A DNA stretch of 64,000 nt from Halogranum rubrum (GTDB lineage: Archaea > Halobacteriota > Halobacteria > Halobacteriales > Haloferacaceae), in NCBI RefSeq assembly GCF_900114455.1, contig NZ_FOTC01000001.1, forward strand, positions 459,058-523,057. Direction: 5' to 3'. The translations under genes were made by a program, and so were the position numbers. The notes beneath the pieces are model-generated. The model searched no databases, had not been told where the DNA came from, and worked only from the letters and a program-made list of their open reading frames with translations. Every line of letters begins with the position of its first letter. Within the stretch, counting starts at the first letter, position 1. Positions 3,318 to 54,275 of the stretch are shown one piece after another.

Positions 3318-4305
3318 CCTCGCAGGACTCGCCGACGGCCCACTGTTCGGCCTCCCGCTTCCCGAACTGTGGTTTGGCCTCATCTTCGCCATGCTGGGGA
3401 CGTTCCTGTTTCTCGATGGCTTCGACTTTGGGGCCGGCGCGCTGTTTGCCACCCGCGAAGACGACGAAGACCGAGAGATGATTCTCGCGGCTATTGGGCC
3501 GTTTTGGGACGGCAACGAAGTGTGGCTCGTCGTCTTCGGTGGGGCGCTGTTCGCCGCCTTCCCAGCAGTATACGCCAACTTGTTCAGTCGGCACTACCTG
3601 CTGATGTTCGGGATTCTCGGTGCGCTGATCCTCCGAGGACTCGCCCCAGAGATGTACGAACAGCGCCACGACAAGCAGTGGCAGCGCTGGTGGGGGCGGT
3701 CGTTCGTCGCTGGCAGCATCCTCGCACCGTTTCTCCTCGGCGCATTCGTCGGCAACTGGGTCGCCGGGACGCCACGGTCGTTCACCCTTGTCGGCATCCT
3801 CGTCGGTCTGACAACCGTGGCGCTCACGATTGTCTCCGGAACCGCCTTCCTGCGTGTGAAAACCCGCGGGACGCTTCGTGCGGACCTGCAGTCCTACGGC
3901 GAGCGCGCTGTCGTCGTGTATCTACTCGCCGTCGTCGCCACCCTCGTCGCCCTCGCAGTGGACGGCCTGCGAGCGGCGATCCTGTCGCCGGTCGTCCTCG
4001 CACTCGTGGGTGCGTCTGTCCTCCTGGCAGGGGGCTACGTGCTTGCGCTCCGCCAGGGGCGTGATCTAGTCGCACTGGCCGCGAGCGCTGGACTGACCTA
4101 CGGGCTGACCGTGGTCGTCGCGCTGTTGTTGTACCCCTCAATCGACCCAGTCTCGGGACTGACCGTCCGCAGCGCGATCGTCTCGACGCTCCCGCTGAAC
4201 CTGATGTCAGTGGGTGCGGCGCTGCTCCTTCCGCTGGTGGCGAGTTACTTCGTCGTCCTCTACTCGGCGTTCAGTGGCCCCGCCGACCCCTCGGAGGCGT
4301 ACTGA
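3310..4305 (+). CDS. cydB: Cytochrome bd-type quinol oxidase subunit II
   Basis: A 331-residue protein with about eight membrane helices. The N-terminal region LPELWFGLIFAMLGTFLFLDGFDFG and the following GPFWDGNEVWLV motif are the signature of CydB (quoted here as the two halves LPELWFGLIF and FLDGFDFGAG). It forms the heterodimer with CydA and holds no haem of its own in most families. The start lies inside the last codons of cydA (8-base overlap) and the stop overlaps the start of the next small gene (TGATG arrangement at 4303-4307), so three genes form one transcript. Nothing is missing or broken. Confidence 0.94.
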   Translation: MTDLAGLADGPLFGLPLPELWFGLIFAMLGTFLFLDGFDFGAGALFATREDDEDREMILAAIGPFWDGNEVWLVVFGGALFAAFPAVYANLFSRHYLLMFGILGALILRGLAPEMYEQRHDKQWQRWWGRSFVAGSILAPFLLGAFVGNWVAGTPRSFTLVGILVGLTTVALTIVSGTAFLRVKTRGTLRADLQSYGERAVVVYLLAVVATLVALAVDGLRAAILSPVVLALVGASVLLAGGYVLALRQGRDLVALAASAGLTYGLTVVVALLLYPSIDPVSGLTVRSAIVSTLPLNLMSVGAALLLPLVASYFVVLYSAFSGPADPSEAY

Positions 4306-5886: not shown

Positions 5887-6032
5887 AGTCGTATCGAACG
5901 ACGGGATCAAGATAGCTGTTCAGTTGTCACGCGACAACTGTCACGCGAATCGACGCACTCTGCCGACCGAGGCGTGTCAGATGAACTGGCGCACGAACGT
6001 CAGGCTGTAGATTCTGGCACGAAGACAGTCGA

Positions 6033-6212
6033 TTACCCGGTTGTGAGCAGCTGCGGGAGGAAGACGCCGATACCGACCAAAACGAGAAAAGCGAGCGCGA
6101 AAGCCGTCTGTTCTTCGACCCCGACCGATTCTAACAGAAGGTCTGTGAGGTACGCCACTGGGAGGGCGAGTACAACCAAGACCGCTGTGATTAGATTTCC
6201 CCGCGAAACCAT
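6033..6212 (-). CDS. Small two-helix membrane protein
   Basis: A 59-residue frame on the minus strand with ATG at 6212 and TAA at 6033-6035. It starts MVSRGNLITAVLVVLALPVA, continues with the acidic loop DLLLESVGVEEQ, then a second hydrophobic helix FALAFLVLVGIGVFLPQLL, then TTG and stop. Helix-loop-helix design, acidic loop and GC-rich third positions make it a convincing real gene although it is short. It lies 90 bases downstream of the PH-domain gene in the same direction and may be co-transcribed with it. Function unknown. Confidence 0.65.
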   Translation of the reverse strand: MVSRGNLITAVLVVLALPVAYLTDLLLESVGVEEQTAFALAFLVLVGIGVFLPQLLTTG

Positions 6213-6302
6213 CGCTGTCGCAATTGAACGGCCACTGGTAAAAATGTTACACAGGCGTCAGTTCGGCCAGTGAATCGTACGGTGATGACCGAGGTGTCCT
6301 CC

Positions 6303-6911
6303 TCAGGTGACGCGGCCCTGTTCAAGGAGTTCCCTGATGCGTCTGAGTTCGGTGAGTACGTCCCCGGACATCAGACGTTCCTCCGATTCACGGCGAGACC
6401 GATTATCCGTGTCGCCACCTTCGGTCGCCTCCGGCGGGCGTCGTCGAATCTTCGCCAGTATCTGGTCTTTAATCTCCTCGTAGTCGCTCACCCCGGAAAT
6501 GGTGAGTTCGGCGCCGGTCTGGCCGCCGAATCCGGCGGTGTGGACGCCGACTGACCCGGCGTCGACCAGCCGCTGGAGCGGGCCCTGTGCGGCATCAACG
6601 TTAGTGATGCGGTTGTACGGGACGGTCGTCTTCTGTCGGAAGAAGACGCCGCGTCGATACTCGAGTTCGTCGTCGGTGAGCCGATAGTCGGCGGTCGCGA
6701 AGAACGCCGGGATCCACCACGCCACGAACCCGAACACGACGAGGAGGATACTTCCGCCGACCACGACGACCCACTGGTTGACCTCGAAGAGGATGCCACT
6801 GATGCCGAGGACACCGACGACCGCGAGAACGACGACCAGCAGGATTCCCTCAACAGCGAAGTAGTACTGCTTCAATTTCTCCGGTTTGAACCACTCGTTT
6901 TCTCGCCTCAT
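6303..6911 (-). CDS. PH-domain (bPH2-type) membrane protein
   Basis: A 202-residue protein from ATG 6911 (MRRENEWFKPEKLKQYY). Two membrane helices (about residues 18-42 and 50-72) are followed by the bPH2 core, which reads DYRLTDDELEYRRGVFFRQ and then TTVPYNRITNVDAAQGPLQR, ending with a predicted strand GVSDYEEIKDQIL. A charged, probably disordered tail of 50 residues ends in a helix (LTELRRIRELLEQ). YdbT and bPH2 proteins are membrane-associated with unknown ligands. The start at 6911 is preferred over a GTG seven codons earlier because it places the charged N-terminus just before the helix. Confidence 0.8.
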   Translation of the reverse strand: MRRENEWFKPEKLKQYYFAVEGILLVVVLAVVGVLGISGILFEVNQWVVVVGGSILLVVFGFVAWWIPAFFATADYRLTDDELEYRRGVFFRQKTTVPYNRITNVDAAQGPLQRLVDAGSVGVHTAGFGGQTGAELTISGVSDYEEIKDQILAKIRRRPPEATEGGDTDNRSRRESEERLMSGDVLTELRRIRELLEQGRVT

Positions 6912-7330: not shown

Positions 7331-7396
7331 AAACTGAGGTGGACGCCAAGTGGCCGACTATCGCTCCGAACTCAGCACACTCTCGGGCTCTATCAG

Positions 7397-7414
7397 AACT
7401 GGCGTGCTGAATAC
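7397..7414 (-). repeat. Isolated fragment of the cassette-type repeat (left edge, inverted)
   Basis: On the minus strand these bases read CTGTATTCAGCACGCCA, identical to the left edge of repeat copy 2 at about 43441-43457. Only the left box is present; the middle and right parts are absent. Being 35 kb outside the array and in opposite orientation, it may be the scar of a past recombination or a chance match of a short motif. Confidence 0.35.
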
Positions 7415-7484
7415 AGAAAGTGTTCAGCGCATGGGGCCGTATGCTCCAGTCAGTTAGCGGCGACCCGAGAGCGATAGCTGTGGG

Positions 7485-7934
7485 CTACTCGCTAACTTCG
7501 GTCTTGATGACGGTCGCCGGCCGCGTCGTCAACCGGAGGACTCGGTCGGTGACGCTCCCGAGAAGCGCCCGGTACTCTGCGGGTCGGCGCTTCGTCCCGA
7601 GCACCAGCAGGTCAACGTCGCTCTCGTCGGCGTACGCAACGATCTGCTCGGCGGGTTGGCCGTGCTGTAACGCCTCGACGATGTCGACGCCGTGTTCGCT
7701 CGCTCTGATACGGATATCGGCGATCGCGTCCTCTCCCAGTTCCTCTAAGCCGTGTTCTGGACCTTCAGCTTCGTCGACGTACTCATCACCACTGTAGGAC
7801 GTCACCACGTCCTCGTCGACGACGTAGAGGACGTGCAGTACGGCGTCGTGGACTGCAGCCAACTCAATCGCGTGCGATTCGGCTTCCTTGGAGGCGATTG
7901 TGCCGTCCGTCGAGAGCAAAATTCGGTCGTACAT
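7485..7934 (-). CDS. Universal stress protein (UspA family)
   Basis: A 149-residue single-domain Usp. It begins MYDRILLSTDGTIASKEA (the conserved first strand and Asp) and has the central DLLVLGTKRRPAEYRALLGSVTDRVLR region, the nucleotide-binding stretch of the family. The strict G-x2-G-x9-G-S/T pattern is only partly met (GTKRR replaces GxxGR), so ATP binding may be weak or lost. It ends with the usual final strand ATVIKTEVSE. A TATA-like element lies about 30 bases upstream of the ATG. It is monocistronic. These proteins generally help cells withstand stress, but specific partners cannot be told from sequence. Confidence 0.85.
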   Translation of the reverse strand: MYDRILLSTDGTIASKEAESHAIELAAVHDAVLHVLYVVDEDVVTSYSGDEYVDEAEGPEHGLEELGEDAIADIRIRASEHGVDIVEALQHGQPAEQIVAYADESDVDLLVLGTKRRPAEYRALLGSVTDRVLRLTTRPATVIKTEVSE

Positions 7935-42243: not shown

Positions 42244-42600
42244 CTATCTGAGGGAGGGGAACCGCTTGCCGTCGTTGATCATGAAATACGCCATGGCCAA
42301 CACGGCTCCCCCAAGGGCCGCAATTTTCACTAGTAGGACGACAGTGAACGCATATCCCCACGGCCGTCGCTTGTAAAGCCAGTACGAAGACAGGGCGAAC
42401 GCGAGGACGATGACCCCAAGATCGAGAAAGTAGATGACGTTCACGGGAAGCCCCGCCTCTACGATACTCTGTGATGTTGTGCCCTCAATCGTCGCTGGAA
42501 GGATGTCTGAGAGCCACAGGAACGTGATCAGTACAACTAACAGTACTTGAAATGCGACGTACGGCCACGTCGACTGCTCACCGACTGCGCGTTTCAGCAC
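42244..42600 (-). CDS. Membrane protein whose start lies inside repeat copy 1
   Basis: 118 residues, three to four helices (YVAFQVLLVVLITFLWLSDI, VNVIYFLDLGVIVLAFALSS, AFTVVLLVKIAALGGAVLAM). The GTG start and the first seven or so codons (MLKRAVGEQ) are read from the left edge of repeat copy 1. That means either the repeat has replaced the original N-terminus or the gene has adopted it. Family members I recall are longer at the N-terminus, which favours truncation. Function unknown. Confidence 0.6.
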   Translation of the reverse strand: MLKRAVGEQSTWPYVAFQVLLVVLITFLWLSDILPATIEGTTSQSIVEAGLPVNVIYFLDLGVIVLAFALSSYWLYKRRPWGYAFTVVLLVKIAALGGAVLAMAYFMINDGKRFPSLR

Positions 42601-42665
42601 GACCCCAGAAACCTACTCAGATGTTGTCAGTAGCGGCGTGCAAGATACAGAGGGTGTATGCAGCA
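42581..42665 (+). repeat. Cassette repeat copy 1
   Basis: Full-length copy; left edge CCGACTGCGCGTTTCAGCAC, right edge GGGTGTATGCAGCA. The left 20 bases are also the start of the minus-strand membrane gene ending at 42244. Confidence 0.8.
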
Positions 42666-42954
42666 GGTGACCGAGGAGAGTGAGCCTACTCCCACAACCC
42701 CAAGGGATTGTAAACCGCCCGCCGGCTCGAGGAGTCGATCGCCGCAACGTACAGCGGCGTCCAGCTCCCCTCGAGGATCGGTGATCCCGTGGGCCGTCGA
42801 CGTGACGACGACTGCCGGTGACCGCGAGGCGGTCGCGGATGTTGTCGAGGCGGAGCTCGACGTTGTGGAGACGGTCAGGAAGGACCTCGTCGTGGGACGG
42901 GTCGACGTGTTCTGACGCCCGGTGTTTATGCCTGCGCGAGTGGTAGCAAAGACT

Positions 42955-43245
42955 ATGTCAATCGACGCGGCGATGGAACGGATCGCGGCCGCCGAAGCTG
43001 AGGCCCGACTCCCCGACGACGACCGCGCCCAGCAACACGAGGTGTACGAGAAGACGTTCGATGCGCTCGAGGACGTCACGCCGGACGACGACGACGAAGG
43101 GATCACCATCGTAAGCGAGTGGATCGTCGAGCAGATTCGAACCGACGGCAAGCGCCCGAGTTCGCGGGCCGTCCGGCAGCGAGCCCGAAAGTACTGCGAG
43201 ATGAACGGCTACGAAATCAGCAACAACGATTGGCTGGGAGCGTAA
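42955..43245 (+). CDS. Small acidic protein, cassette 1
   Basis: 96 residues from ATG 42955 (MSIDAAMERIAAAEAEARLP). It is helical and strongly acidic; the centre has PDDDDEGITIVSEWIVEQIR and the C-terminal half KRPSSRAVRQRARKYCEMNG then YEISNNDWLGA, which looks like a small helix-turn-helix (R/K-rich recognition helix). A DNA-binding role is inference. It is the only convincing gene between repeat copies 1 and 2; the 290 bases before it carry frames on both strands that I cannot decide between. Confidence 0.6.
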   Translation: MSIDAAMERIAAAEAEARLPDDDRAQQHEVYEKTFDALEDVTPDDDDEGITIVSEWIVEQIRTDGKRPSSRAVRQRARKYCEMNGYEISNNDWLGA

Positions 43246-43433
43246 CCGACGGATGCGAATCTCTCGAGGCGCGTGACCCGGTACGCTGGGGTTTACGGTT
43301 TCGTTCTTTTGTGACCGTTACCGAAGGTACTGCAATGGCTACCGACATCAGTCGACGGTTTCGACCGCGAATTTCGCTCGCCTCGGCCGCCGTCGCGTTC
43401 CTCCTCCGGACGTGACGACGTTCTCTGCAAGAT

Positions 43434-43518
43434 ACGCGCCCTGTATTCAGCACGCCAGCAGAAACCTCACCAATCGCTGTCAGAAGGAGCGTGCAACACT
43501 CAGAGGGTGTGTCTTGCA
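43434..43518 (+). repeat. Cassette repeat copy 2
   Basis: Full-length copy. Left edge GCGCCCTGTATTCAGCACG, middle AGAAACCTCACCAATCGCTG; the right end deviates (GGGTGTGTCTTGCA). The 46 bases between it and the GNAT start presumably hold that gene's promoter. Confidence 0.8.
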
Positions 43519-43564: not shown

Positions 43565-44092
43565 ATGCCCGGTCCTGTCTTTCTGGATGGTGAGGATGTC
43601 GAGCTACGTACCATCGAGACCGACGACGCAGCGTTTCTCCAGCAAACACTCAATGACCCACAAGTTCGGTCCAGTCTCACCGCGTTTTCCCCGAGAAGTC
43701 GAACGCAGAAAGCTGACTGGATAGCCGCCCGAGACGACTCAGACGGGGTTGTCTTGCTTATCTGCGTTGACGGAGACCCCGTTGGAACGGTTGCGCTGAA
43801 TCCACCGAACGACGTGTGGGGAGTAGCCGAAATCGCATATATGGTCGCCCCGGACAAGTGGGGTAACGGGTATGCGACAGAGGCAGTTCGCCTCATCTGC
43901 CGCTATGGATTCGAAGAACGACGCTTGAACAAGGTGTACGCGGAGCCGTTCGCAACGAACACGGGGTCGTGCCGTGTGTTAGAGAAAGTGGGTTTCAGCG
44001 AGGAGGGAACCCTGCGACAAGAGGCCTTCATCGAGGGGGAATACGTCGATGTACGACGGTATGGGTTGCTGGCCGAGGAGTGGAACCAGTAG
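43565..44092 (+). CDS. GNAT (RimJ/RimL-type) N-acetyltransferase, cassette 2
   Basis: 175 residues from ATG 43565 (MPGPVFLDGEDVELRTIETD). The acetyl-CoA fold is complete: VVLLICVDGDPVGTVALNPP (strand with Gly-Thr-Val), AEIAYMVAPDKWGNGYATEA (the pyrophosphate-binding loop), then RRLNKVYAEPFATNTGSCRV and LEKVGFSEEGTLRQEAFIEG, the hallmark of RimJ/L-like enzymes. It transfers an acetyl group to an N-terminal or small-molecule amine; the substrate is unknown. Sole gene of its interval, same strand as the repeats. Confidence 0.88.
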   Translation: MPGPVFLDGEDVELRTIETDDAAFLQQTLNDPQVRSSLTAFSPRSRTQKADWIAARDDSDGVVLLICVDGDPVGTVALNPPNDVWGVAEIAYMVAPDKWGNGYATEAVRLICRYGFEERRLNKVYAEPFATNTGSCRVLEKVGFSEEGTLRQEAFIEGEYVDVRRYGLLAEEWNQ

Positions 44093-44110
44093 TAGCCGAA
44101 TGATGCACAC

Positions 44111-44193
44111 GCGCTCTGTATTCAGCACGGCCATAGAAACCTCCCCGGACGCTGTCAGAAGCGGCGTGCAAGACTCAGAGAGTGAGTTCAGCA
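44111..44193 (+). repeat. Cassette repeat copy 3
   Basis: Full-length copy starting 18 bases after the GNAT stop. Left edge GCGCTCTGTATTCAGCACGG; right edge GAGAGTGAGTTCAGCA. Confidence 0.85.
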
Positions 44194-44257: not shown

Positions 44258-44533
44258 ATGGTCACGTCGGTAAAGATGGACGACGACACCAAATCTCGGC
44301 TCGAACGGTTACAGGCCGAGATTCGGCTGAAGACAGGCAACCGAGTGACACAACAGGAAATCCTCGCACGACTCGTTGAGCATGCCATTGAGTCCAAGGC
44401 AGACCTTATTGACTCGTTCCGAGAGAAACGTGTTCCCCTCGCCGAATCCGAGCGCGAGAAGTTTCACGATGGGATGGTCTCGTCCGGAGTCTCGACGAGC
44501 GAAGAAGACATCGACGACGTGCTGTACGGATGA
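44258..44533 (+). CDS. VapB-like antitoxin, cassette 3
   Basis: 91 residues. The N-terminal half is a ribbon-helix-helix: MVTSVKMDDDTKSRLERLQA, then EIRLKTGNRVTQQEILARLV. The C-terminal half (REKRVPLAESEREKFHDGMV and an acidic end) would wrap the toxin. It is four-base coupled (ATGA) to the PIN-domain toxin that follows, the standard antitoxin-first order. RHH proteins of this type repress their own promoter; the upstream AT-rich box at about 44225-44245 is the probable target. Confidence 0.8.
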   Translation: MVTSVKMDDDTKSRLERLQAEIRLKTGNRVTQQEILARLVEHAIESKADLIDSFREKRVPLAESEREKFHDGMVSSGVSTSEEDIDDVLYG

Positions 44534-44958
44534 GTGTCTTCGTTGATACTGGCGTGTTCTTTGCGCACCACGATTCGGATGCGGATCAGCACGACCAGGC
44601 CGTCAGTGCATTCGACGAGTTGCTTGATGGGGAATACGGACAACCGTATACGAACGACTACGTTTTCGACGAGACCGTGACCCTCACGCGCGCTCGAACA
44701 GGTTCATTCGAGGCTGCGGACACCGTCGCCGGTCGCATTCTCGGCGAAGAGCCGTTTCCTCAAGTCTTCGAAATGATTCACGTCGAACCGGACGATGTTC
44801 GGACGTCGCTAGAAACGTTTCGTCGATACGACGACCACGACCTCAGCTTCACTGACGCGACGATAGTCACGCTGTGTGAGTCACGTGATATCGACGCTGT
44901 GTTGAGCTTCGACACGGATTTCGATGGACTCGTTGAGCGTATCGAACCAGGATACTAA
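44530..44958 (+). CDS. PIN-domain toxin (VapC family), cassette 3
   Basis: 142 residues. The PIN-domain acidic residues are all present: D in MSVFVDTGVFFAHHDSDAD, E in TNDYVFDETVTL, D in LSFTDATIVTLCESRD and D in AVLSFDTDFDG. It should be a Mg-dependent ribonuclease held inactive by the upstream RHH protein. Normal length. The stop at 44958 is followed by about 210 bases without a clear gene; a faint degenerate match to the repeat's right half lies at 44990-45032. Confidence 0.88.
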   Translation: MSVFVDTGVFFAHHDSDADQHDQAVSAFDELLDGEYGQPYTNDYVFDETVTLTRARTGSFEAADTVAGRILGEEPFPQVFEMIHVEPDDVRTSLETFRRYDDHDLSFTDATIVTLCESRDIDAVLSFDTDFDGLVERIEPGY

Positions 44959-45371: not shown

Positions 45372-45773
45372 TTATCTGTTCCGCCGTGTACAGGCCCGGA
45401 AGTATACGACAGCCGTCTCGATGTCGACTCTCTCTGAATCGGTTGCAAAACGCTTCAGCAGTGCTCGAACCTCATCGCCATAGTCGAACGTGTACCCGTT
45501 GAGCATGTAGAACGTCGCTACTGTGTCGAGTGCAGTTCGTTTGTTGTCGTCGACAAACGGGTGATCGGCGATCAAGAGGCGCATCAGGTGCACAGCTTTG
45601 TGGTGAATCGTTTCTGGTGACTCACCGAAGTATCCTTCAGAGATGTATTGTACCGCGGACGTAATCGGTTTCTTCGAGCGGACGCCTGGCTCTGTGTTAT
45701 CACCCTCCTCGACGATCTGTTCGTGAATCTCGAGGATGAGCTCAACCGTAGGATACACCAGTTCGTCGCTCAC
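45372..45773 (-). CDS. Doc/Fic-family toxin, cassette 3
   Basis: 133 residues, GTG start. The Fic motif HPFVDDNKRTAL around residues 72-83 matches HxFx(D/N)xNKR with Asp in place of the usual Gly or Ala, as in Doc-type kinases. Flanking helices LILEIHEQIVEE, TIHHKAVHLMRLLIADHPF and TVATFYMLNGYTFDYG fit Doc. Doc toxins phosphorylate elongation factor Tu, whereas Fic proteins AMP-ylate targets; which applies cannot be told. It shares an interval with VapBC but lies on the opposite strand, so this interval may be two cassettes whose intervening repeat has decayed. Confidence 0.85.
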   Translation of the reverse strand: MSDELVYPTVELILEIHEQIVEEGDNTEPGVRSKKPITSAVQYISEGYFGESPETIHHKAVHLMRLLIADHPFVDDNKRTALDTVATFYMLNGYTFDYGDEVRALLKRFATDSERVDIETAVVYFRACTRRNR

Positions 45774-45879
45774 AGTGACAAATACAGGTCGACTTTGGAT
45801 AGTCGTTTTTCTCTCTGCCGGACAGTGATGTTCTTTCTCCCTTCTCAGATGGCTGCCTACAGATACAATTGCGAGATAT

Positions 45880-45962
45880 GCGCCCTGAGTTCAGCACGGC
45901 CACAGAAACCTCACCAGTTGTTGGCAGAAAGTGCGTGCAAGACTTAAAGGGTGAGTTCACCA
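45880..45962 (+). repeat. Cassette repeat copy 4
   Basis: Full-length copy: left GCGCCCTGAGTTCAGCACGG; right end GGGTGAGTTCACCA (two differences from consensus). The middle is more diverged (TTGTTGGCAGAAAG). Confidence 0.85.
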
Positions 45963-46019: not shown

Positions 46020-46883
46020 CTACGCTGTCCCCACTGAGCGCCGCCGGTCAAGGAGATAGATGAGTGCAGCGAGCCAGCACACACCGACGAAGCTCAGGGC
46101 TCCAACGGGGGCGTCCCATGCGTTAAGCTCTGCTGCGTAATCACCGAGTATGAACGCGGCGATAGGAGTGCCAACGTACGCAACAACGTTTGGAATCCAC
46201 GGTGAATTACTTTCATGGAGCTTTTCCGCATCCTTGTACACTGCAACGAGCAGAAATATTGCTGTACTATACGTAATTAACAGCAATAAGATTCCGAAAA
46301 GTGTCCCAACAGCACTTTGGGGCCTAAGTCCAAAGAAATAGCCCACTGTCACAGGCACGACGAAGACGTACACAGCCACGTATTTCGGCCATTTCGAGTC
46401 ATTTGTTCCTCGCCAGTCTTCACTCGTCGTACCCTTCACTTCGGCCCGCCACGACCGCACAGCAGCAAGTCGGTCACCGAAATAGGCAGCCACACGGACA
46501 ATGAGTACACCAATGGCAACTCCGAGAACGATAGCGATGAGAGTTCCAACCACGGTGAAGAGCGCTGCTCTGGGGGAGGATACGCTGAGGGTCGAAAACA
46601 TGGTGGCGAGATAGACGATAACGAGTCCAATGGAAGCAACAAGCCCGGTTCGTGTACTCGCTCGACGTCCGCTCGTTGGTCGATTGTAGTAGAGGCATCC
46701 GACGAGAAAGCCAGCGGCTATGAACGCACCACCAGAGACGGTTCCACCAGCAACTAACGACTCGTCGGTTACTGTTGGCCACGATAGCGGCACGGTGAGT
46801 AGTGCTGACACGAGCCCGATGGCTGTAGCGAGCCGAAGCTCAGGCTCAGTCAGCTCTCGATAGAAGTGTGTGTGGAGGGACAT
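46020..46883 (-). CDS. Polytopic membrane protein, cassette 4
   Basis: 287 residues with seven to eight helices. A basic cytoplasmic loop containing SWRAEVKGTTSEDWRGTNDS follows helix four, and the C-terminus is LLDRRRSVGTA. It resembles a family of haloarchaeal proteins seen near cassette-like regions but has no named function; no catalytic motif, transporter signature or cysteine pattern is visible. ATG 46883. It fills the interval between repeat copies 4 and 5, on the strand opposite to the repeats. Confidence 0.7.
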   Translation of the reverse strand: MSLHTHFYRELTEPELRLATAIGLVSALLTVPLSWPTVTDESLVAGGTVSGGAFIAAGFLVGCLYYNRPTSGRRASTRTGLVASIGLVIVYLATMFSTLSVSSPRAALFTVVGTLIAIVLGVAIGVLIVRVAAYFGDRLAAVRSWRAEVKGTTSEDWRGTNDSKWPKYVAVYVFVVPVTVGYFFGLRPQSAVGTLFGILLLLITYSTAIFLLVAVYKDAEKLHESNSPWIPNVVAYVGTPIAAFILGDYAAELNAWDAPVGALSFVGVCWLAALIYLLDRRRSVGTA

Positions 46884-47090
46884 TACGTCGGATACTCTGT
46901 GAATCGCTATCAGTAAGAGTGTTTTTCATTGGTCATCTCGTTTTCACTCTCAATATTCAATTTACGGCCACAGGAACAGAGACTACTCACTCAAGGTTTT
47001 CAGTTCGATCATTGAGACCCTCCCACTTTCTGCCGACTTGGAGGACAAATCGACAAGTTTCATTGGCGGCCAATGGCTCCTGATCGACTC

Positions 47091-47172
47091 GCGCCCTAAG
47101 TTCAGCACACCCGTAGAAACCCCACCGAATGCTGTCAGTAACGGCATGCAACATCCAGAGGTGAGTTCAGCA
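47091..47172 (+). repeat. Cassette repeat copy 5
   Basis: Full-length copy with one base missing near the right edge (CCAGAGGTGAGTTCAGCA). Left edge GCGCCCTAAGTTCAGCACAC, preceded by TGATCGACTC, a variant of the extended left block. Confidence 0.85.
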
Positions 47173-47607: not shown

Positions 47608-47756
47608 GTCATAAATCCCTGTAGTGGTAAGTTAATTCCACTGGAAGGTCGACCAACTGAGAGAAGAACTAGTCAGATAGTTACCAAGAGAAATAATCTA
47701 CCGAGAGCACAAATAAGTGAGAGTTAATATTTCTTGGGTAGTGAATTGACCGACTT

Positions 47757-47840
47757 GCGCGCTCTATTCAGCACGGCCTCAAGAACATCACTGAACGCTG
47801 TCAGAAGTGGCGTGCAACACTCAGAGGGTGAGCTATCAGC
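47757..47840 (+). repeat. Cassette repeat copy 6
   Basis: Full-length copy preceded by TTGACCGACTTGCGC (extended block). Left GCGCGCTCTATTCAGCACGG; right end GGGTGAGCTATCAGC with a small rearrangement. It abuts the stop of the next minus-strand gene directly. Confidence 0.85.
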
Positions 47841-47842
47841 GG

Positions 47843-48211
47843 TCAATCAGCGGGAGTTACGGGTTGAGATCGCTCCTCATCGGCTGATTTACTCATCTCT
47901 GCACCAAGCCCAATTCCTGCAGCTGCAATGCCCATCGCGAGCTGCACAAGTGTGAGTCGGTGCCCTCCAAGTTGAAGATCGGGATGAATACTATACAGAG
48001 GGAACACCACCAGTAGGGGGAGTAGAATCTGTGGAAAGAGACCACTGTCCTTCAGCGCAGAGCGATTTCGAGCTAGTAACCAGCCAGCGAGAGCCCAGAT
48101 GAGACCAAGAGAAAGCAGCAGTTGCGGGTTCCCTGAACCATCAATAGAGTGGATCCAAGCTATCACTCCCCCCACGATAACACCGGCGGAGAGGGCTTTG
48201 TAATCGACCAT
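47843..48211 (-). CDS. Membrane protein, cassette 6
   Basis: 122 residues from ATG 48211 (MVDYKALSAGVIVGGVIAWI). Four hydrophobic helices, a short basic loop (ARNRSALKDSG) and the charged tail SKSADEERSQPVTPAD. A longer start eight codons upstream is possible. Its stop lies two bases from repeat copy 6. No function recognised. Confidence 0.65.
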   Translation of the reverse strand: MVDYKALSAGVIVGGVIAWIHSIDGSGNPQLLLSLGLIWALAGWLLARNRSALKDSGLFPQILLPLLVVFPLYSIHPDLQLGGHRLTLVQLAMGIAAAGIGLGAEMSKSADEERSQPVTPAD

Positions 48212-48294
48212 GTCATCAGGACAAGTTATGAACACAAAAAGATTGAGTCAGACACCAAAAAGATAGTAATAAACAATCGCTAGCACCAATCTTG

Positions 48295-48335
48295 TGACCG
48301 ACTTGTGCGCTGTATTCAGCATAGCTATTAGGAAC
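48295..48335 (+). repeat. Cassette repeat copy 7 (left half only)
   Basis: TGACCGACTTGTGCGC then TGTATTCAGCATAGC; homology stops near 48335 where the middle and right blocks should follow. A truncated copy, consistent with a deletion between two neighbouring cassettes or with decay. Confidence 0.65.
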
Positions 48336-48407: not shown

Positions 48408-48839
48408 TCACGCTGACGTCTCTCGACGAGAATTGGAATTTGACGTGTCGGTATCGATAGGGAACGTAATTGAGAGATCAATTGCCTCGGTTCCATCGCG
48501 GAGTATCGGGCGCTTGCTGTTACCATCTGTAGTGAACTCAATGACGCCGAGCGCTTCGAGTTCCTTGAGATTCCGGTGAACCTCCTTGTAATCGCGATTG
48601 GCAAGTCGAGCAGTCTCACGGATACTTTCTGGGCGCTCACTAGCGACGATGTCCAAGAGCTGGAGGTTCAACCGACGCATGAGTCGTTCAACGTCGTCGA
48701 GGTCCTCGAAGTTTAGCACGAACGCTGCCTCCTGTTCTTCGAACTCTTCTCCAGATTCCGCCCGACGGAGTCGCTCGCGAGCGGCTCGCTGGTTATTCTC
48801 GCGCTGGCCGTACGTAATTTTGAGTATGTTTGCGGTCAT
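48408..48839 (-). CDS. Winged-helix protein, TumE-partner (HVO_A0114-type), cassette 7
   Basis: 143 residues. The N-terminal helix is charged (RENNQRAARERLRRAESGEE), then the wHTH: LLDIVASERPESIRETARLA, NRDYKEVHRNLKELEALGVI, and wing EFTTDGNSKRPILRDG. This is the haloarchaeal HVO_A0114-type DNA-binding protein typically encoded with TumE-like toxins, so it is the presumed antitoxin. It overlaps the upstream TumE-like gene by four bases and lies downstream of it on the minus strand. Confidence 0.8.
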   Translation of the reverse strand: MTANILKITYGQRENNQRAARERLRRAESGEEFEEQEAAFVLNFEDLDDVERLMRRLNLQLLDIVASERPESIRETARLANRDYKEVHRNLKELEALGVIEFTTDGNSKRPILRDGTEAIDLSITFPIDTDTSNSNSRRETSA

Positions 48840-49117
48840 GGAAGATCCTGGATTTCGTTCAGGAACCGGTCACGGAGTTCCATCATTCCGGGGAACTCAA
48901 TTTCGTCGATGCCATCGGGTGTATGTCGTTCGTGGCGTCCGGGAGTTCGGTTCTCGTTGTCGTAGCGGAGAATGACGCCTTGGCCATCGAGAAACCCGTA
49001 GTGAAGCGCGTATCGGTACCCGCTCGGATACTGAGGGTCGTCAGTTCGGTAGATTTTCCGCCGAATGACCGTCTCACCCGTCCTGTCTTCGGTGTTCTCG
49101 ATAACCTCGAACGTCAT
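48836..49117 (-). CDS. TumE-family (DUF6516) putative toxin, cassette 7
   Basis: 93 residues, mostly beta strand: MTFEVIENTEDRTGETVIRR, SGYRYALHYGFLDGQGVILR, YDNENRTPGRHERHTPDGID, EIEFPGMMELRDRF. The phrases YALHYG, LRYDNE and H-x-R-H-T are those of TumE-like proteins; paired with the HVO_A0114-type wHTH it forms a TumE/TumA-like toxin-antitoxin pair. Mechanism unknown to me. ATG 49117. Confidence 0.8.
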   Translation of the reverse strand: MTFEVIENTEDRTGETVIRRKIYRTDDPQYPSGYRYALHYGFLDGQGVILRYDNENRTPGRHERHTPDGIDEIEFPGMMELRDRFLNEIQDLP

Positions 49118-49209
49118 TCCTCACGCTATGGTATGAAGCCCATCAAAATAAGCATATGGGGTATTGCCCATCAAAGAGTGAAGAATCACCTGCAACTCCT
49201 GACCGACTT

Positions 49210-49292
49210 GCGCTGTGAGTTCAGGACGCCCGCAGAAACCTCACCGAACGCTGTTAGAAGCGGCGTGCAACACTCAGAGGATGTATGCAGCA
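49210..49292 (+). repeat. Cassette repeat copy 8
   Basis: Full-length copy with extended left block TGACCGACTTGCGC; middle AGAAACCTCACCGAACGCTG is consensus; right edge GGATGTATGCAGCA. Confidence 0.9.
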
Positions 49293-49550: not shown

Positions 49551-49617
49551 GCAGTGCGCGCTCTATGTTTATCACTCCCGAGCGACCGCCAAATGATGAC
49601 TGACTCATGACCGACTT

Positions 49618-49700
49618 GCGCGCTGAGTTTAGCACGACCACAGAAACCTCACCAGTTGCTGTCAGAAGGTGCGTGCAACATTCAGAGAGAGAATTCAGCA
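49618..49700 (+). repeat. Cassette repeat copy 9
   Basis: Full-length copy with the extended block ATGACCGACTTGCGC. The right edge GAATTCAGCA supplies the stop codon (TGA on the minus strand) of the lipoprotein gene at 49695. A second short match to the left box (GCGCGCTCTATGTTT) lies just upstream at 49556-49570. Confidence 0.9.
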
Positions 49701-50126: not shown

Positions 50127-50185
50127 ATACGCAGTCATCTGTTGGTAGTGAAGTGTTTTCTGGCGTACCGAGGTATGCTGAATAA

Positions 50186-50268
50186 GCGCCCTGAGCTCAG
50201 CACGACCACAACAAACTACTCAGATGCTGTCAGGAGCATCGTGCAAGACTCAGAGGGTGAGTTCAGCA
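50186..50268 (+). repeat. Cassette repeat copy 10
   Basis: Full-length copy; left GCGCCCTGAGCTCAGCACGA, right GGGTGAGTTCAGCACG. The middle resembles copy 1 (CTACTCAGATGCTGTCAG) rather than the consensus, showing that sub-types exist. Confidence 0.85.
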
Positions 50269-50495: not shown

Positions 50496-50542
50496 AGTTC
50501 AACTTGTAGTGGGAAGTACAATAATATTCTCCTGACCGACTT

Positions 50543-50626
50543 GCGCCCTGAGTTCAGCACGCTCGTAGAAACCTCCCCCGAATGCTGTCAGAAGATACAT
50601 GCAACATACAGAGGGTGAATTCAGCA
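50543..50626 (+). repeat. Cassette repeat copy 11
   Basis: Full-length copy with extended block CTGACCGACTTGCGC; right edge GGGTGAATTCAGCA. Confidence 0.9.
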
Positions 50627-50718
50627 CCACCTCGCCTATAGACTACATTGACCAGTCAGAAACCGACGTGAGACTGTCCGAACGCTTATCTGTAGCCACC
50701 GACTCGATTTTGATAGAG

Positions 50719-50979
50719 ATGGCCAGCACGACTCGTGACAACGGTAATGGCGGCGTCGAGTTCGTCTATGAGGAGGATGGACGAGTCACGGCGAAAGACA
50801 TCGAGACGGGTGTCGCTTCTTTCGGTGACGACCGCGCAGAGGCTCTGCGGATGCTCGCAGACGCACTCGATGCTTACCACGGGAAGGGAGAACCCGTCGA
50901 CGATGACGAGCTGGCCGCAGAACTCGGTCTCAGCGAGGACGAAATCGGAAGCGAAGGCCGCCCGCCGTGGGACGAGTAA
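50719..50979 (+). CDS. hicB: HicB-like antitoxin, cassette 11
   Basis: 86 residues from ATG 50719. The HicB fold is visible: GGVEFVYEEDGRVTAKDIET, then GVASFGDDRAEALRMLADAL, followed by the acidic tail LSEDEIGSEGRPPWDE. HicB partially degenerate RNase-H folds block HicA. No separate DNA-binding domain is obvious. It is followed after one base by hicA, so the order here is antitoxin first. Upstream extension reads through the repeat and is rejected. Confidence 0.85.
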   Translation: MASTTRDNGNGGVEFVYEEDGRVTAKDIETGVASFGDDRAEALRMLADALDAYHGKGEPVDDDELAAELGLSEDEIGSEGRPPWDE

Positions 50980-50980
50980 C

Positions 50981-51226
50981 GTGGGCCGGACGACGTTCAC
51001 AGGTCGAGAAGTCGCCAAGGTGCTGATGAAATTCGGGTACGAGCCGAAGTCACGGTCTGGGAGTCACCTCACGTTGGAGTACGTCAACCCCGACACTGGC
51101 GACGTTCGACGACCGACTGTCCCTCTTCACGGAGATATCCCTCGTGGGACGCTTGGGAGCATCGCAGAGCAGTGTGGTGCAGAAGATTTCCACTCGTTCT
51201 GTGAGTGGATTGACGACCACTGTTAG
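50981..51226 (+). CDS. hicA: HicA-like toxin, cassette 11
   Basis: 81 residues from GTG 50981. The double-stranded RNA-binding-like core has REVAKVLMKFGYEPKSRSGS, the catalytic His in GSHLTLEYV, and PTVPLHGDIPRGTLGSIAEQ. HicA cleaves mRNA until bound by HicB. Normal length. The C-terminal DFHSFCEWIDDHC carries two cysteines. Confidence 0.88.
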   Translation: MGRTTFTGREVAKVLMKFGYEPKSRSGSHLTLEYVNPDTGDVRRPTVPLHGDIPRGTLGSIAEQCGAEDFHSFCEWIDDHC

Positions 51227-51291: not shown

Positions 51292-51334
51292 AGCTGTCAG
51301 CAATGGCGTGACACAGATAAAGGCTGAGTTCAGC
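51292..51334 (+). repeat. Cassette repeat copy 12 (right half; left half degenerate)
   Basis: Right blocks AAGCTGTCAGCAATGGCGTG, then AGGCTGAGTTCAGCACG. The preceding 40 bases keep only weak resemblance to the left and middle blocks. A decayed or truncated copy. Confidence 0.65.
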
Positions 51335-51402
51335 ACGCCCCGCTCGTTCAGCTCTGGAATATCCGTCTGAATCAACCGTTAAGTAGGTGTGCGAATGGGC
51401 TG

Positions 51403-51957
51403 TTATCCGAGGAGATACCGGGTCCACGGATACCGCTCAACGAGCGGTTGTCCTCCAATTTCATACCGTTCGATATACTGGTCAAGTCCAAGAATCCGGC
51501 CAGCCCCGAACGCTGCGACTGACAAGAACACGAGCATGTACGCAAAGTCGCCATTGATGTAGCCGTGGGCAATATCCCAGTTCCCGAAGTAGAACAGCAC
51601 CATCATGAATCCTCCGAAGAACGCGGCGAGCCTCGTCAGACACCCGACGAGGAGTCCGAGCCCGATGAGGAGTTGTCCCCACGGGACAGCAACGTTCACG
51701 AAGTCCATGAACCACGGGGTTTGTGCCATCGAGACGAACAGGTCCGCCAGCGGGCTTCCGTTTGCGGACGGCGCGTTTTGGAGATATCCTGCAGCATCGA
51801 ATCCCCCACCGGTCAGTTTCCCGAGACCTGCTTGGAGGAACGCCAATCCCATCATCAGCCGGAGCGCGAGGATGAACCAGACACTCAATGTGTGGAGTTT
51901 CCCTGCAGCAGTGAAGCCTGCAATCGTACTCCGGAGTTCAACTTCTCGTACAGACAT
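51403..51957 (-). CDS. DoxX-family membrane protein, cassette 12
   Basis: 184 residues, four to five helices. LRLMMGLAFLQAGLGKLTGG is the DoxX start; NVAVPWGQLLIGLGLLVGCL, then RLAAFFGGFMMVLFYFGNWD and FAYMLVFLSVAAFGAGRILG complete the core. DoxX and DoxD proteins are membrane subunits of thiosulfate:quinone oxidoreductase or related redox proteins; without a DoxA partner the activity is open. It is the largest intact metabolic-type cargo in the array. Confidence 0.85.
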   Translation of the reverse strand: MSVREVELRSTIAGFTAAGKLHTLSVWFILALRLMMGLAFLQAGLGKLTGGGFDAAGYLQNAPSANGSPLADLFVSMAQTPWFMDFVNVAVPWGQLLIGLGLLVGCLTRLAAFFGGFMMVLFYFGNWDIAHGYINGDFAYMLVFLSVAAFGAGRILGLDQYIERYEIGGQPLVERYPWTRYLLG

Positions 51958-52146
51958 GACATAGAAATATTTCTAGGCGGATTAAAAAAACCTATTTATT
52001 CAATTTCAAATACCAAAGTTCATAATAATATACGTCGACCCTGAATCGAACGATCATCCTGCTGCAAGACTCGCGCGCTCTATTCAGCACGACAACAAAA
52101 ACCTCACCGAACGCTGTCAGAATGGTCGTGACACATACAGAGGGTG

Positions 52147-53125
52147 GGCCTTGTTTAGACGGTTAGACTCGGTCAGTCTGAGAAGTGTGTAACTAATATC
52201 GCCGTGCTAGCAGCTCCACAGAGGTGCCAAATTTACTAGGAACTGAAGCGGGACGGATTGGGTGTGCAAACCAAGACCTCCCGCTTCGCAGAGACGATTG
52301 TATCGCTCGCCAAAAAAGCCGTCGTTGGCGAGCCAGCTCCGGCATACTGTCCCGGAAAAGAGGGGTATGCCGACTGGGTGATTCTCGCCGTTCAAGGGTT
52401 CAAAGAGTACCTCGGTCACGACTACCGGAAGCTGCTGGATGTTCTCCGAGAAATACCGAGAGTCGCAGAGTCACTCGGTTTAACGGTTGAGACGCTTCCT
52501 CACTTCTCCACAGTTTGTGCACGGAAGCAAGAGATTCCGATGAAGCGGTGGCGAGCGATGCTCGACGCATCGGTCGAGCTGTACGAACTCGGTGATGTTC
52601 AAGCGATCGACACAACCGGCATGGATCGTGTCCAAGCTAGTCAGCACTACGCGAAACGGATAGACTATACGTTTGAGGCGGTGAAAACCACGCTGCTCAT
52701 CGATTGTGAAACAAGTACGATACTATATATACACTGTTCGACGAAACAACTGCACGATACACAGGTCGGCTGGCAAGTGCTAGTGCGGAATCTCGACGAT
52801 TTAACGGCTGTGGCGGCGGATAAAGGATACGACTGGGAAGCACTTCGGACGAAATTACGTTCTGAAAATGTCACACCGCTTATTCCGCAACGTGGACCGG
52901 GATTGCGGGGTTGGGCGAGAAACTTGATTATTTTCGATGGGGCGTATCATCAACGCTCGAATGCAGAATCGGTGTTTTTCGGATTGCGCCGTCGGTACGG
53001 CGAGACGCTGTGGGCGAGAACGTGGTTCGGTTAGTTCCGTGAACTTGTCATGAAATCAGCGGTGCGAAACATCGAACGCGCAATTGCGGGGTCGAGTCAC
53101 TGAATTCAGGCGACTAAACAAGGCT
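52147..53125 (+). mobile_element. IS5-like insertion sequence, 979 bp
   Basis: The ends are inverted repeats: GGCCTTGTTTAGACG at the left and, read on the complement of the right end, AGCCTTGTTTAGTCG. A 9-bp direct duplication CAGAGGGTG flanks it (52138-52146 and 53126-53134). It carries one transposase gene with a premature stop. The insertion is precisely inside repeat copy 13, so it postdates the array. Confidence 0.88.
52258..53103 (+). pseudogene. IS5-family DDE transposase with internal stop
   Basis: Reading from a TTG at 52258 the frame encodes SLAKKAVVGEPAPAYCPGKE and the DDE residues D118 (QAIDTTGMDR), D188 (AVAADKGYDW) and E237 (RSNAESVFFGLRRRYG). A TAG at 53032-53034 stops it at 258 residues. 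The same frame continues with FRELVMKSAVRNIERAIAGS to a TGA at 53101-53103, giving an intact length near 281. A single C-to-T change of a Gln codon explains the stop. All catalytic residues precede it, so residual activity is possible but the C-terminus is lost. Confidence 0.85.
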
Positions 53126-53249
53126 CAGAGGGTGTAGTCAGCAACTGCTGAGGATTGTACTCCCGGCTTGCAGAGTGGAGTACCTGACAGACTGAGCGAG
53201 CGAAGCGACGGGGCAAGATATATTGAAGCTCATCTTCTCATCTCTCGTT

Positions 53250-53973: not shown

Positions 53974-54192
53974 CGCAGTCCACGTCCGTCGCTCGGATGT
54001 GGTGACTGGCACCCCCCAGGAGTTGCGACGGACGGGAGAGCTCTTACCCTTCCAAGGGTTGTGCCTCACACAGCCCCTATTTTCGGCATGCGGACACTGA
54101 CAGCGTACAGAGAGTACGCGCTTTGGTGTGGTAACTCTCAACGATGTATCGAACGTTCCGGGGCGAAAGCGACCAGTGCTAATGACACACTC

Positions 54193-54275
54193 GCACGCTG
54201 AGTTCAGCACGACCAGAGAAACCTACCCGAACGTTACCAGAAGTGGTGTGCAACACTCAGAAGATGTAGTCAGCA
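54193..54275 (+). repeat. Cassette repeat copy 14 (last)
   Basis: Full-length copy: left GCACGCTGAGTTCAGCACGA, right AAGATGTAGTCAGCACG. No further copy was seen beyond it, so the array ends here, 512 bases before the large ATPase gene. Confidence 0.85.

Follow-up and report, generated by a model that had tools for sequence, protein, structure and literature searches.

Paired dif-like sites as probable junctions between gene cassettes in polar arrays of haloarchaea

A 93-bp repeat that recurs in Halogranum rubrum and in many other haloarchaea would represent the junction between gene cassettes of a haloarchaeal cassette-array system. Our sequence comparisons, taken jointly, are probably best explained by cassettes resembling Xer/dif modules on which a tyrosine recombinase, plausibly a XerA-like one, acts in trans, with some of the arrays lying inside IS5-type transposable elements. 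The recombinase would exchange strands in the spacer of each site, as Xer does at dif; upon exchange, the C-box would stay with the cassette, and the D-box and linker with the array. An IS5-family transposase, in turn, may relocate some whole arrays. Tandem cassettes, given the obligatory alternation of C- and D-sided segments, would need a short D-sided linker of 35 nt between them, which would account for the fixed 93-bp form of the repeat.

Anatomy of the paired site and its arrays

The repeat was analyzed in a window of 64,000 nucleotides, the whole stretch of H. rubrum DNA considered here. Its copy at 50176-50268 (plus strand) is 93 bp long and runs from TG to CA; the ends are sharp in an alignment of 61 copies, where information drops to about zero directly outside both edges of the block. 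The element is laid out as a site L, a 35-nt linker and an inverted site R, with four boxes in all. Each site is a dif-like sequence of 29 bp, composed of a C-box (11 bp), a spacer (6 bp) and a D-box (12 bp), and the consensus reads TGACCGACTTG-CGCGCT-GAGTTCAGCACG-(35 nt)-CGTGCAACACTC-AGAGGG-TGTATTCAGCA. In the copy at 50176-50268, site L (50176-50204, plus strand; PWM score 32.3 bits) comprises the C-box TGCTGAATAAG, the spacer CGCCCT and the D-box GAGCTCAGCACG, and the inverted, 29-bp site R (50240-50268; 42.8 bits), read on the minus strand, comprises the C-box TGCTGAACTCA, the spacer CCCTCT and the D-box GAGTCTTGCACG. The 35-nt linker between them (50205-50239, plus strand) resembles, in a comparison by reading, shortened IS5-type terminal repeats and may consist of two shortened arms placed back to back.

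The initial annotation of this DNA had described three related boxes, and these are indeed present in this copy: CTGAGCTCAGCACG (50191-50204, forward), CGTGCAAGACTCAG (50240-50253, inverted) and GGTGAGTTCAGCA (50256-50268, forward, then CG). It had let the element begin at 50186; the actual start is 50176, and the error arose because the fourth box (TGCTGAATAAG, inverted, 50176-50186) had been missed. The inverse match that it reported between the first two boxes, 11 of 14 positions, holds for the consensus, but is 10 of 14 in the 50176-50268 copy by direct reading. Random pairs of 14-mers from the window reached an inverse match of 11 of 14 only 17 times in 200,000, and the 21-mer TTCAGCACGACCACAGAAACC, with up to three mismatches, occurs at 51 places in the genome versus none for its reversed control; as a family, the boxes are far beyond chance. 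L and R sites differ in both C-box and spacer, so that they are not freely interchangeable, unlike pdif sites. Within the sites, mutual information was highest between neighboring positions inside a box, and alternative half-site forms (e.g. GAGTT, TATT) were seen.

Between 42.6 and 54.3 kb of the window, about 14 complete or partial copies on the plus strand, the one above among them, delimit roughly a dozen gene cassettes, which form a polar array. The leftmost copy seen (42586-42665) has a degenerate left half. Further paired sites, likewise on the plus strand, lie at 43426-43518, 44101-44193, 45870-45962, 47081-47172 (one base shorter), 47747-47839, 49200-49292, 49608-49700, 50533-50626 (36-nt linker), 52063-52155 (with the R site split by an IS5-family element) and, as the last one seen, 54183-54275. 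Besides, there is an L half alone at 48295-48323 (plus strand), followed by an arm-like TATCG...GGGTTTCATCGAGCCC, and an R half alone at 51307-51335 (minus strand).

The cassettes of this array carry a GNAT acetyltransferase gene (43565-44089, plus strand; Pfam PF13302, E=6.4e-28); a small upstream ORF with a PIN-domain toxin-like gene (44258-44958, plus strand; PF01850, E=2.3e-11), possibly an antitoxin-toxin pair, and in the same cassette a Fic/Doc-family gene (45372-45773, minus strand; PF02661, E=9.8e-08); a DUF5518-like membrane protein gene (46020-46883, minus strand; PF17647, E=8.5e-05, below the cut-off); a second membrane protein gene (47843-48235, minus strand), with a homologous cassette (87%) at positions 5961-6467 of locus L048; a winged-helix gene (HVO_A0114) with a small partner ORF (48408-49117, minus strand; PF25212, E=1.6e-25), with a homologous cassette (95%) in locus L060; right of the site at 50533-50626, a gene pair of DUF7387, in a HicB-like position, and the toxin HicA (50599-51226, plus strand; PF24113, E=3.8e-27, and PF07927, E=9.9e-12); and a DoxX gene (51403-51957, minus strand; PF07681, E=8.2e-10). 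The IS5-family element that interrupts a site R occupies 52147-53125 (plus strand; transposase at 52258-53034, NF033579, 177.6 bits), and by direct reading CAGAGGGTG is repeated at its two borders (52138-52146 and 53126-53134). This arrangement recalls Acinetobacter, where pdif sites are targeted by insertion sequences (PMC10132070). Elsewhere in the window, far from the array, a lone degenerate paired site with a shortened linker was found at 7351-7431. The ORF list, as read, places conjugation-ATPase-like genes on either side of the array (32-39 kb and 54.8-60.7 kb), suggesting that it resides in an integrated plasmid or conjugative element.

The same grammar was observed across the collected loci, which were selected for having sites and partly overlap. 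The order R-(full)n-L, on one strand, was seen in the five genomes of three genera examined first and then in later arrays from several families, with R halves at the left and L halves at the right array ends. These loci yielded 241 cassettes with a median length of 578 bp, bounded by D|C and C|D sites; as 229 of them have one R-type and one L-type site, the arrays are polar. The linker between cassettes was exactly 35 nt long in 173 of 192 cases. Neighboring sites alternated in 452 of 518 pairs; the other 66 were same-strand pairs that break the C/D alternation. Most cassettes carry a short gene in either orientation, the longest reading frame following the array direction 120 times and opposing it 106 times, i.e. 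at random. Their cargo is varied, with 150 cassette proteins assigned to 86 Pfam families, none of which occurred in more than three. A reading of the arrays as defense islands was discarded, as PADLOC matches were few and the Cas12f matches are probably IS605 OrfB-type proteins.

As to genomic surroundings, a TFIIB-family gene and a DNA-binding (RPA-like) gene flank an array in Halogranum and likewise in Haloprofundus halobius. A plasmid module of RPA-like, TFIIB, SWIM-type and other genes, which the Haloprofundus surroundings resemble, has two outward-facing insertion points for cassettes (L065 2607-9256, L048, L051, L054, L069 and L186). In L083, GAGTTCACCTATGGAAATTCTGC follows an L-type C-box twice (3600-3623 and 7613-7636), and in L061 it follows an R-type site (2880-2971), a picture that loss of the linker and fusion of two cassettes might have produced.

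Exchange junctions and candidate recombinases

Where the same cassette occurs in different contexts, excess identity covers the C-box, reaching positions 11-13 of the 29-bp site, and has vanished by positions 18-20 (n=17 ends, some of them non-independent). For instance, the window cassette at 42666-43425 (plus strand) recurs in another context at L086 9854-10670, and the two copies are 95% identical as far as TGCAAGATACGCGC and divergent thereafter. One plasmid locus is available in five copies from three species: its flanks are 89-98% identical over 250 bp per side and its D-boxes mostly identical, and the contents are unrelated (45-57% in global alignments) and range from 412 to 7110 bp. 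Breakpoints between contexts are thus non-random and fall within the 6-bp spacer of each 29-bp site, in agreement with the two-site recombinase target that had been proposed from the initial reading. These junctions support recombination at the sites, with the exchange itself apparently taking place within the 6-bp spacer. A reading of the half copies as crossovers midway along the 93-bp repeat was rejected, since shared cassettes have their junctions in the two spacers, and a simple insertion of circles, C|C by D|D, was set aside because the L spacer matches the R spacer in inverted orientation only.

Which enzyme might catalyze this exchange? Of 392 genomes, 378 encode a XerA-like tyrosine recombinase (about 355 aa), among them 345 of 345 good ones, and nearly always in a single copy; the best NCBIfam match of this protein is recomb_XerA_Arch, below the cut-off. 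Given this ubiquity and the 11-6-11 anatomy of the sites, the XerA-like enzyme is the leading candidate and plausibly acts on them, its near-universality at the same time rendering co-occurrence with arrays uninformative. No chromosomal dif of this consensus was identified, nor a conserved single dif among lone sites and in array-poor genomes. Lone sites were considered as chromosomal dif, a reading made unlikely by the element-like arms that most of them carry.

Alternatively, the cassette system could work in the same way, yet be served by a tyrosine recombinase other than XerA, or by another site-specific recombinase, that is encoded on a plasmid or element and acts in trans. Array genomes do hold several more tyrosine recombinases, one family being present in all five genomes examined first, and a dedicated enzyme could explain the asymmetry between L and R sites. 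However, no recombinase gene recurs beside the arrays in the collected loci, and the other integrases diverge between genomes, whereas the site consensus is constant across 59 genera; we therefore deem this option rather unlikely. A linked integrase, with two frames of about 305 aa on G000:C9 included as candidates, was dropped for want of recurrence beside arrays. Of the tyrosine recombinase genes seen, two related ones at G000:C9:9478 and 19108 (L049 and L093) have an unusually high Pfam integrase score relative to other haloarchaeal ones there.

IS5-type ends and the folded-site reading

In lone and terminal sites, the D-box is followed on its outer side by a conserved arm that ends in TTTCAACAGAGCC. 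Terminal inverted repeats (TIRs) of the GGCTCTGTTGAAA type, together with 8-bp target duplications, enclose several single cassettes and arrays of three cassettes. With the TIR GGCTCTGTTGAAA, the duplications are GATGATGG in L178, GCTCAGTC in L168 and ATTTATCA in L077; three-cassette arrays are flanked by ATTTATTAA in L140 and GGCGAGTG in L148, and L169 has AAACAAGT (by reading). The same TIR is found on an autonomous, intact IS5-family element of the same genome (L173; target duplication TTCTGAGT), which has its outer ~30 bp in common with the arrays and is devoid of the dif-like site. From the ends shared with this element and the target duplications, we infer that IS5-type transposition brought at least some of the arrays to their present places. 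Convincing duplications (8-9 bp, beside TIR tips) were seen in six elements only, and TIRs in common with the autonomous IS5 element are found on a minority of arrays; 70 of 94 arrays had no shared end word of at least 6, and matches of at least 8 were only modestly above those of mismatched pairs. The evidence from target duplications rests on the individual cases in which duplication and TIR tip coincide. The autonomous element spans 1304 bp (L173 403-1706), and a second ORF (90 aa, membrane-like) follows its transposase gene.

These ends, together with the likeness of the linker to shortened TIRs, would also fit tandem non-autonomous IS5-family transposons (MITE-like), whose boxes would be transposase-binding sites in long terminal repeats, whose arrays would have grown by side-by-side insertion and whose contents would have been changed by transposition or homologous recombination. 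Yet where cassettes have been exchanged, the flanks are kept and the junctions fall in the spacer, about 50 bp inward of the TIR ends. This is not where transposition would stop, and homologous recombination should rather terminate in the longest conserved runs, namely the D-box and linker. The one predominant linker length, and the autonomous element having only its outer ~30 bp in common with the arrays, without a dif-like site, likewise speak against this explanation, which we consider improbable.

The initial annotation had also likened the repeat to sites that recombine as a folded single strand (attC). This likeness did not hold up: in 60 aligned copies, the implied stem was paired at 66.4% of positions, compared to 66.8% in shuffles, and no measure of covariation between the left and inverted boxes rose above the control. 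The consensus fold (RNAalifold) has four pairs at -1.3 kcal/mol, i.e. almost no structure. In attP of the CTX phage, two inverted dif-like sites lie at a short, fixed distance, and the pair acts as a folded single strand. The haloarchaeal sites are likewise inverse, dif-like and closely spaced, but pairing between them is not conserved.

If the repeat were an attC site, recombined by an IntI integrase, this could account for the cassette sizes, the small accessory genes, the polar arrays and the four-box R-L-L-R layout. However, the inverted boxes show no covariation and no conserved fold, genes are oriented at random, and breakpoints fall at both simple sites rather than one. In addition, no integrase recurs beside the arrays in the collected loci, and the XerA-like protein reaches only a marginal 18.2 bits against an integron-integrase cut-off of 265. 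Thus, by three tested criteria, namely the fold, an IntI beside attI and the orientation of cassette genes, the element is not an integron; the second was judged from recombinase recurrence in the collected loci and the score of the XerA-like protein, which covers part of the tyrosine recombinases. We consider an integron very improbable and describe the element as working in the manner of an integron or a bacterial dif module, though not folding as an integron site does. Still less credence is due to an IS200/IS605-type single-strand element or PATE, moved at hairpins by a Y1 transposase, for although each half holds an inverted box pair able to form a hairpin and PATEs are known in Haloquadratum (PMC3119063), terminal inverted repeats with 8-bp target duplications misfit that mechanism and the exchanged segments terminate in the spacer, which would be part of the hairpin loop.

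Relation to known systems, distribution and significance

The nearest functional relative of the haloarchaeal arrays appears to be the dif (pdif) modules of Acinetobacter plasmids, in the sense that both would work alike. In these modules, which are served by XerC/XerD (PMC13141974, PMC11705084), small accessory genes, often toxin-antitoxin, likewise lie between inversely oriented 11-6-11 sites, an architecture that dif and pdif have in common (PMC2958812, PMC13141974). In both systems, C-sided segments take turns with D-sided ones, the spacers setting the partners in Acinetobacter (PMC13141974); exchange is placed in the 6-bp spacer, and no linked recombinase gene is found. Unlike in pdif modules, the D-sided partner in haloarchaea is mostly a conserved 35-nt linker, giving rise to rigid 93-bp pairs. 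Further differences are the polarity of the arrays, the dissimilar L and R sites, the IS5-type ends and target duplications that arrays can carry, and the archaeal hosts. An archaeal precedent for the site is dif of Pyrococcus abyssi, the target of XerA, an inverted-repeat site of 28 bp with a 6-bp spacer (PMC2958812). The inverted repeat, the spacer and a XerA-like enzyme in the host are shared, whereas P. abyssi dif is chromosomal and serves dimer resolution, and haloarchaea have tens of paired sites that bound cassettes.

Integron cassettes and attC sites, including those reported from archaea (PMC9668308), resemble the present system in their arrays of short cassettes, a four-box separating site and a cargo of toxin-type and other accessory genes, and arrays that lie far from any integrase are similar to CALINs. 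They differ in that no conserved single-strand fold, IntI or attI was found for the haloarchaeal arrays, gene orientation is random, and crossovers fall in two simple sites. The word 'Halo' is absent from the main text of the archaeal integron survey (PMC9668308). With haloarchaeal IS5 elements and MITEs, some arrays and cassettes share terminal repeats and target duplications; those MITEs are mostly short and non-coding in Haloquadratum (PMC3119063), whereas the cassette elements hold internal dif-like sites and changing cassettes.

A 93-nt model of the repeat matched 170 of 392 Halobacteriales genomes (~43%) and 59 of 95 genera (E<=1e-6). Matches were also found in 20 of 72,556 plasmid records, all of them haloarchaeal; no annotated feature lies under the match in any of the 20, one of which is without any annotation. 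Carriage by phages or viruses was set aside, as neither phage records nor a viral scan with one strict exact pattern gave a match, although the viral scan says little, because among the named genomes that pattern matched only Halogranum amylolyticum, a genome of the same genus.

In its most far-reaching form, our reading would be that of an integron-independent gene capture, widespread in one archaeal class, in which the host XerA shuffles arrays of rigid paired dif-like sites and an IS5 transposase in trans transplants whole arrays, neither enzyme being encoded by the element; we put this forward tentatively, as a serious possibility. Heavy gene exchange and variable megaplasmids are known features of haloarchaea, yet we found no description of an integron-like capture platform, nor any account of an integron-like or dif-module system, for them in the open-licence papers searched. 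As a marker present in 170 of 392 genomes, the repeat would allow small accessory genes, such as those for toxin-antitoxin systems, acetyltransferases, membrane proteins and many unknowns, to be located and catalogued. It would also offer a natural assay of roles of archaeal XerA beyond its presumed part in chromosome dimer resolution, and would add a case from outside Acinetobacter of dif-like sites becoming platforms for gene exchange.
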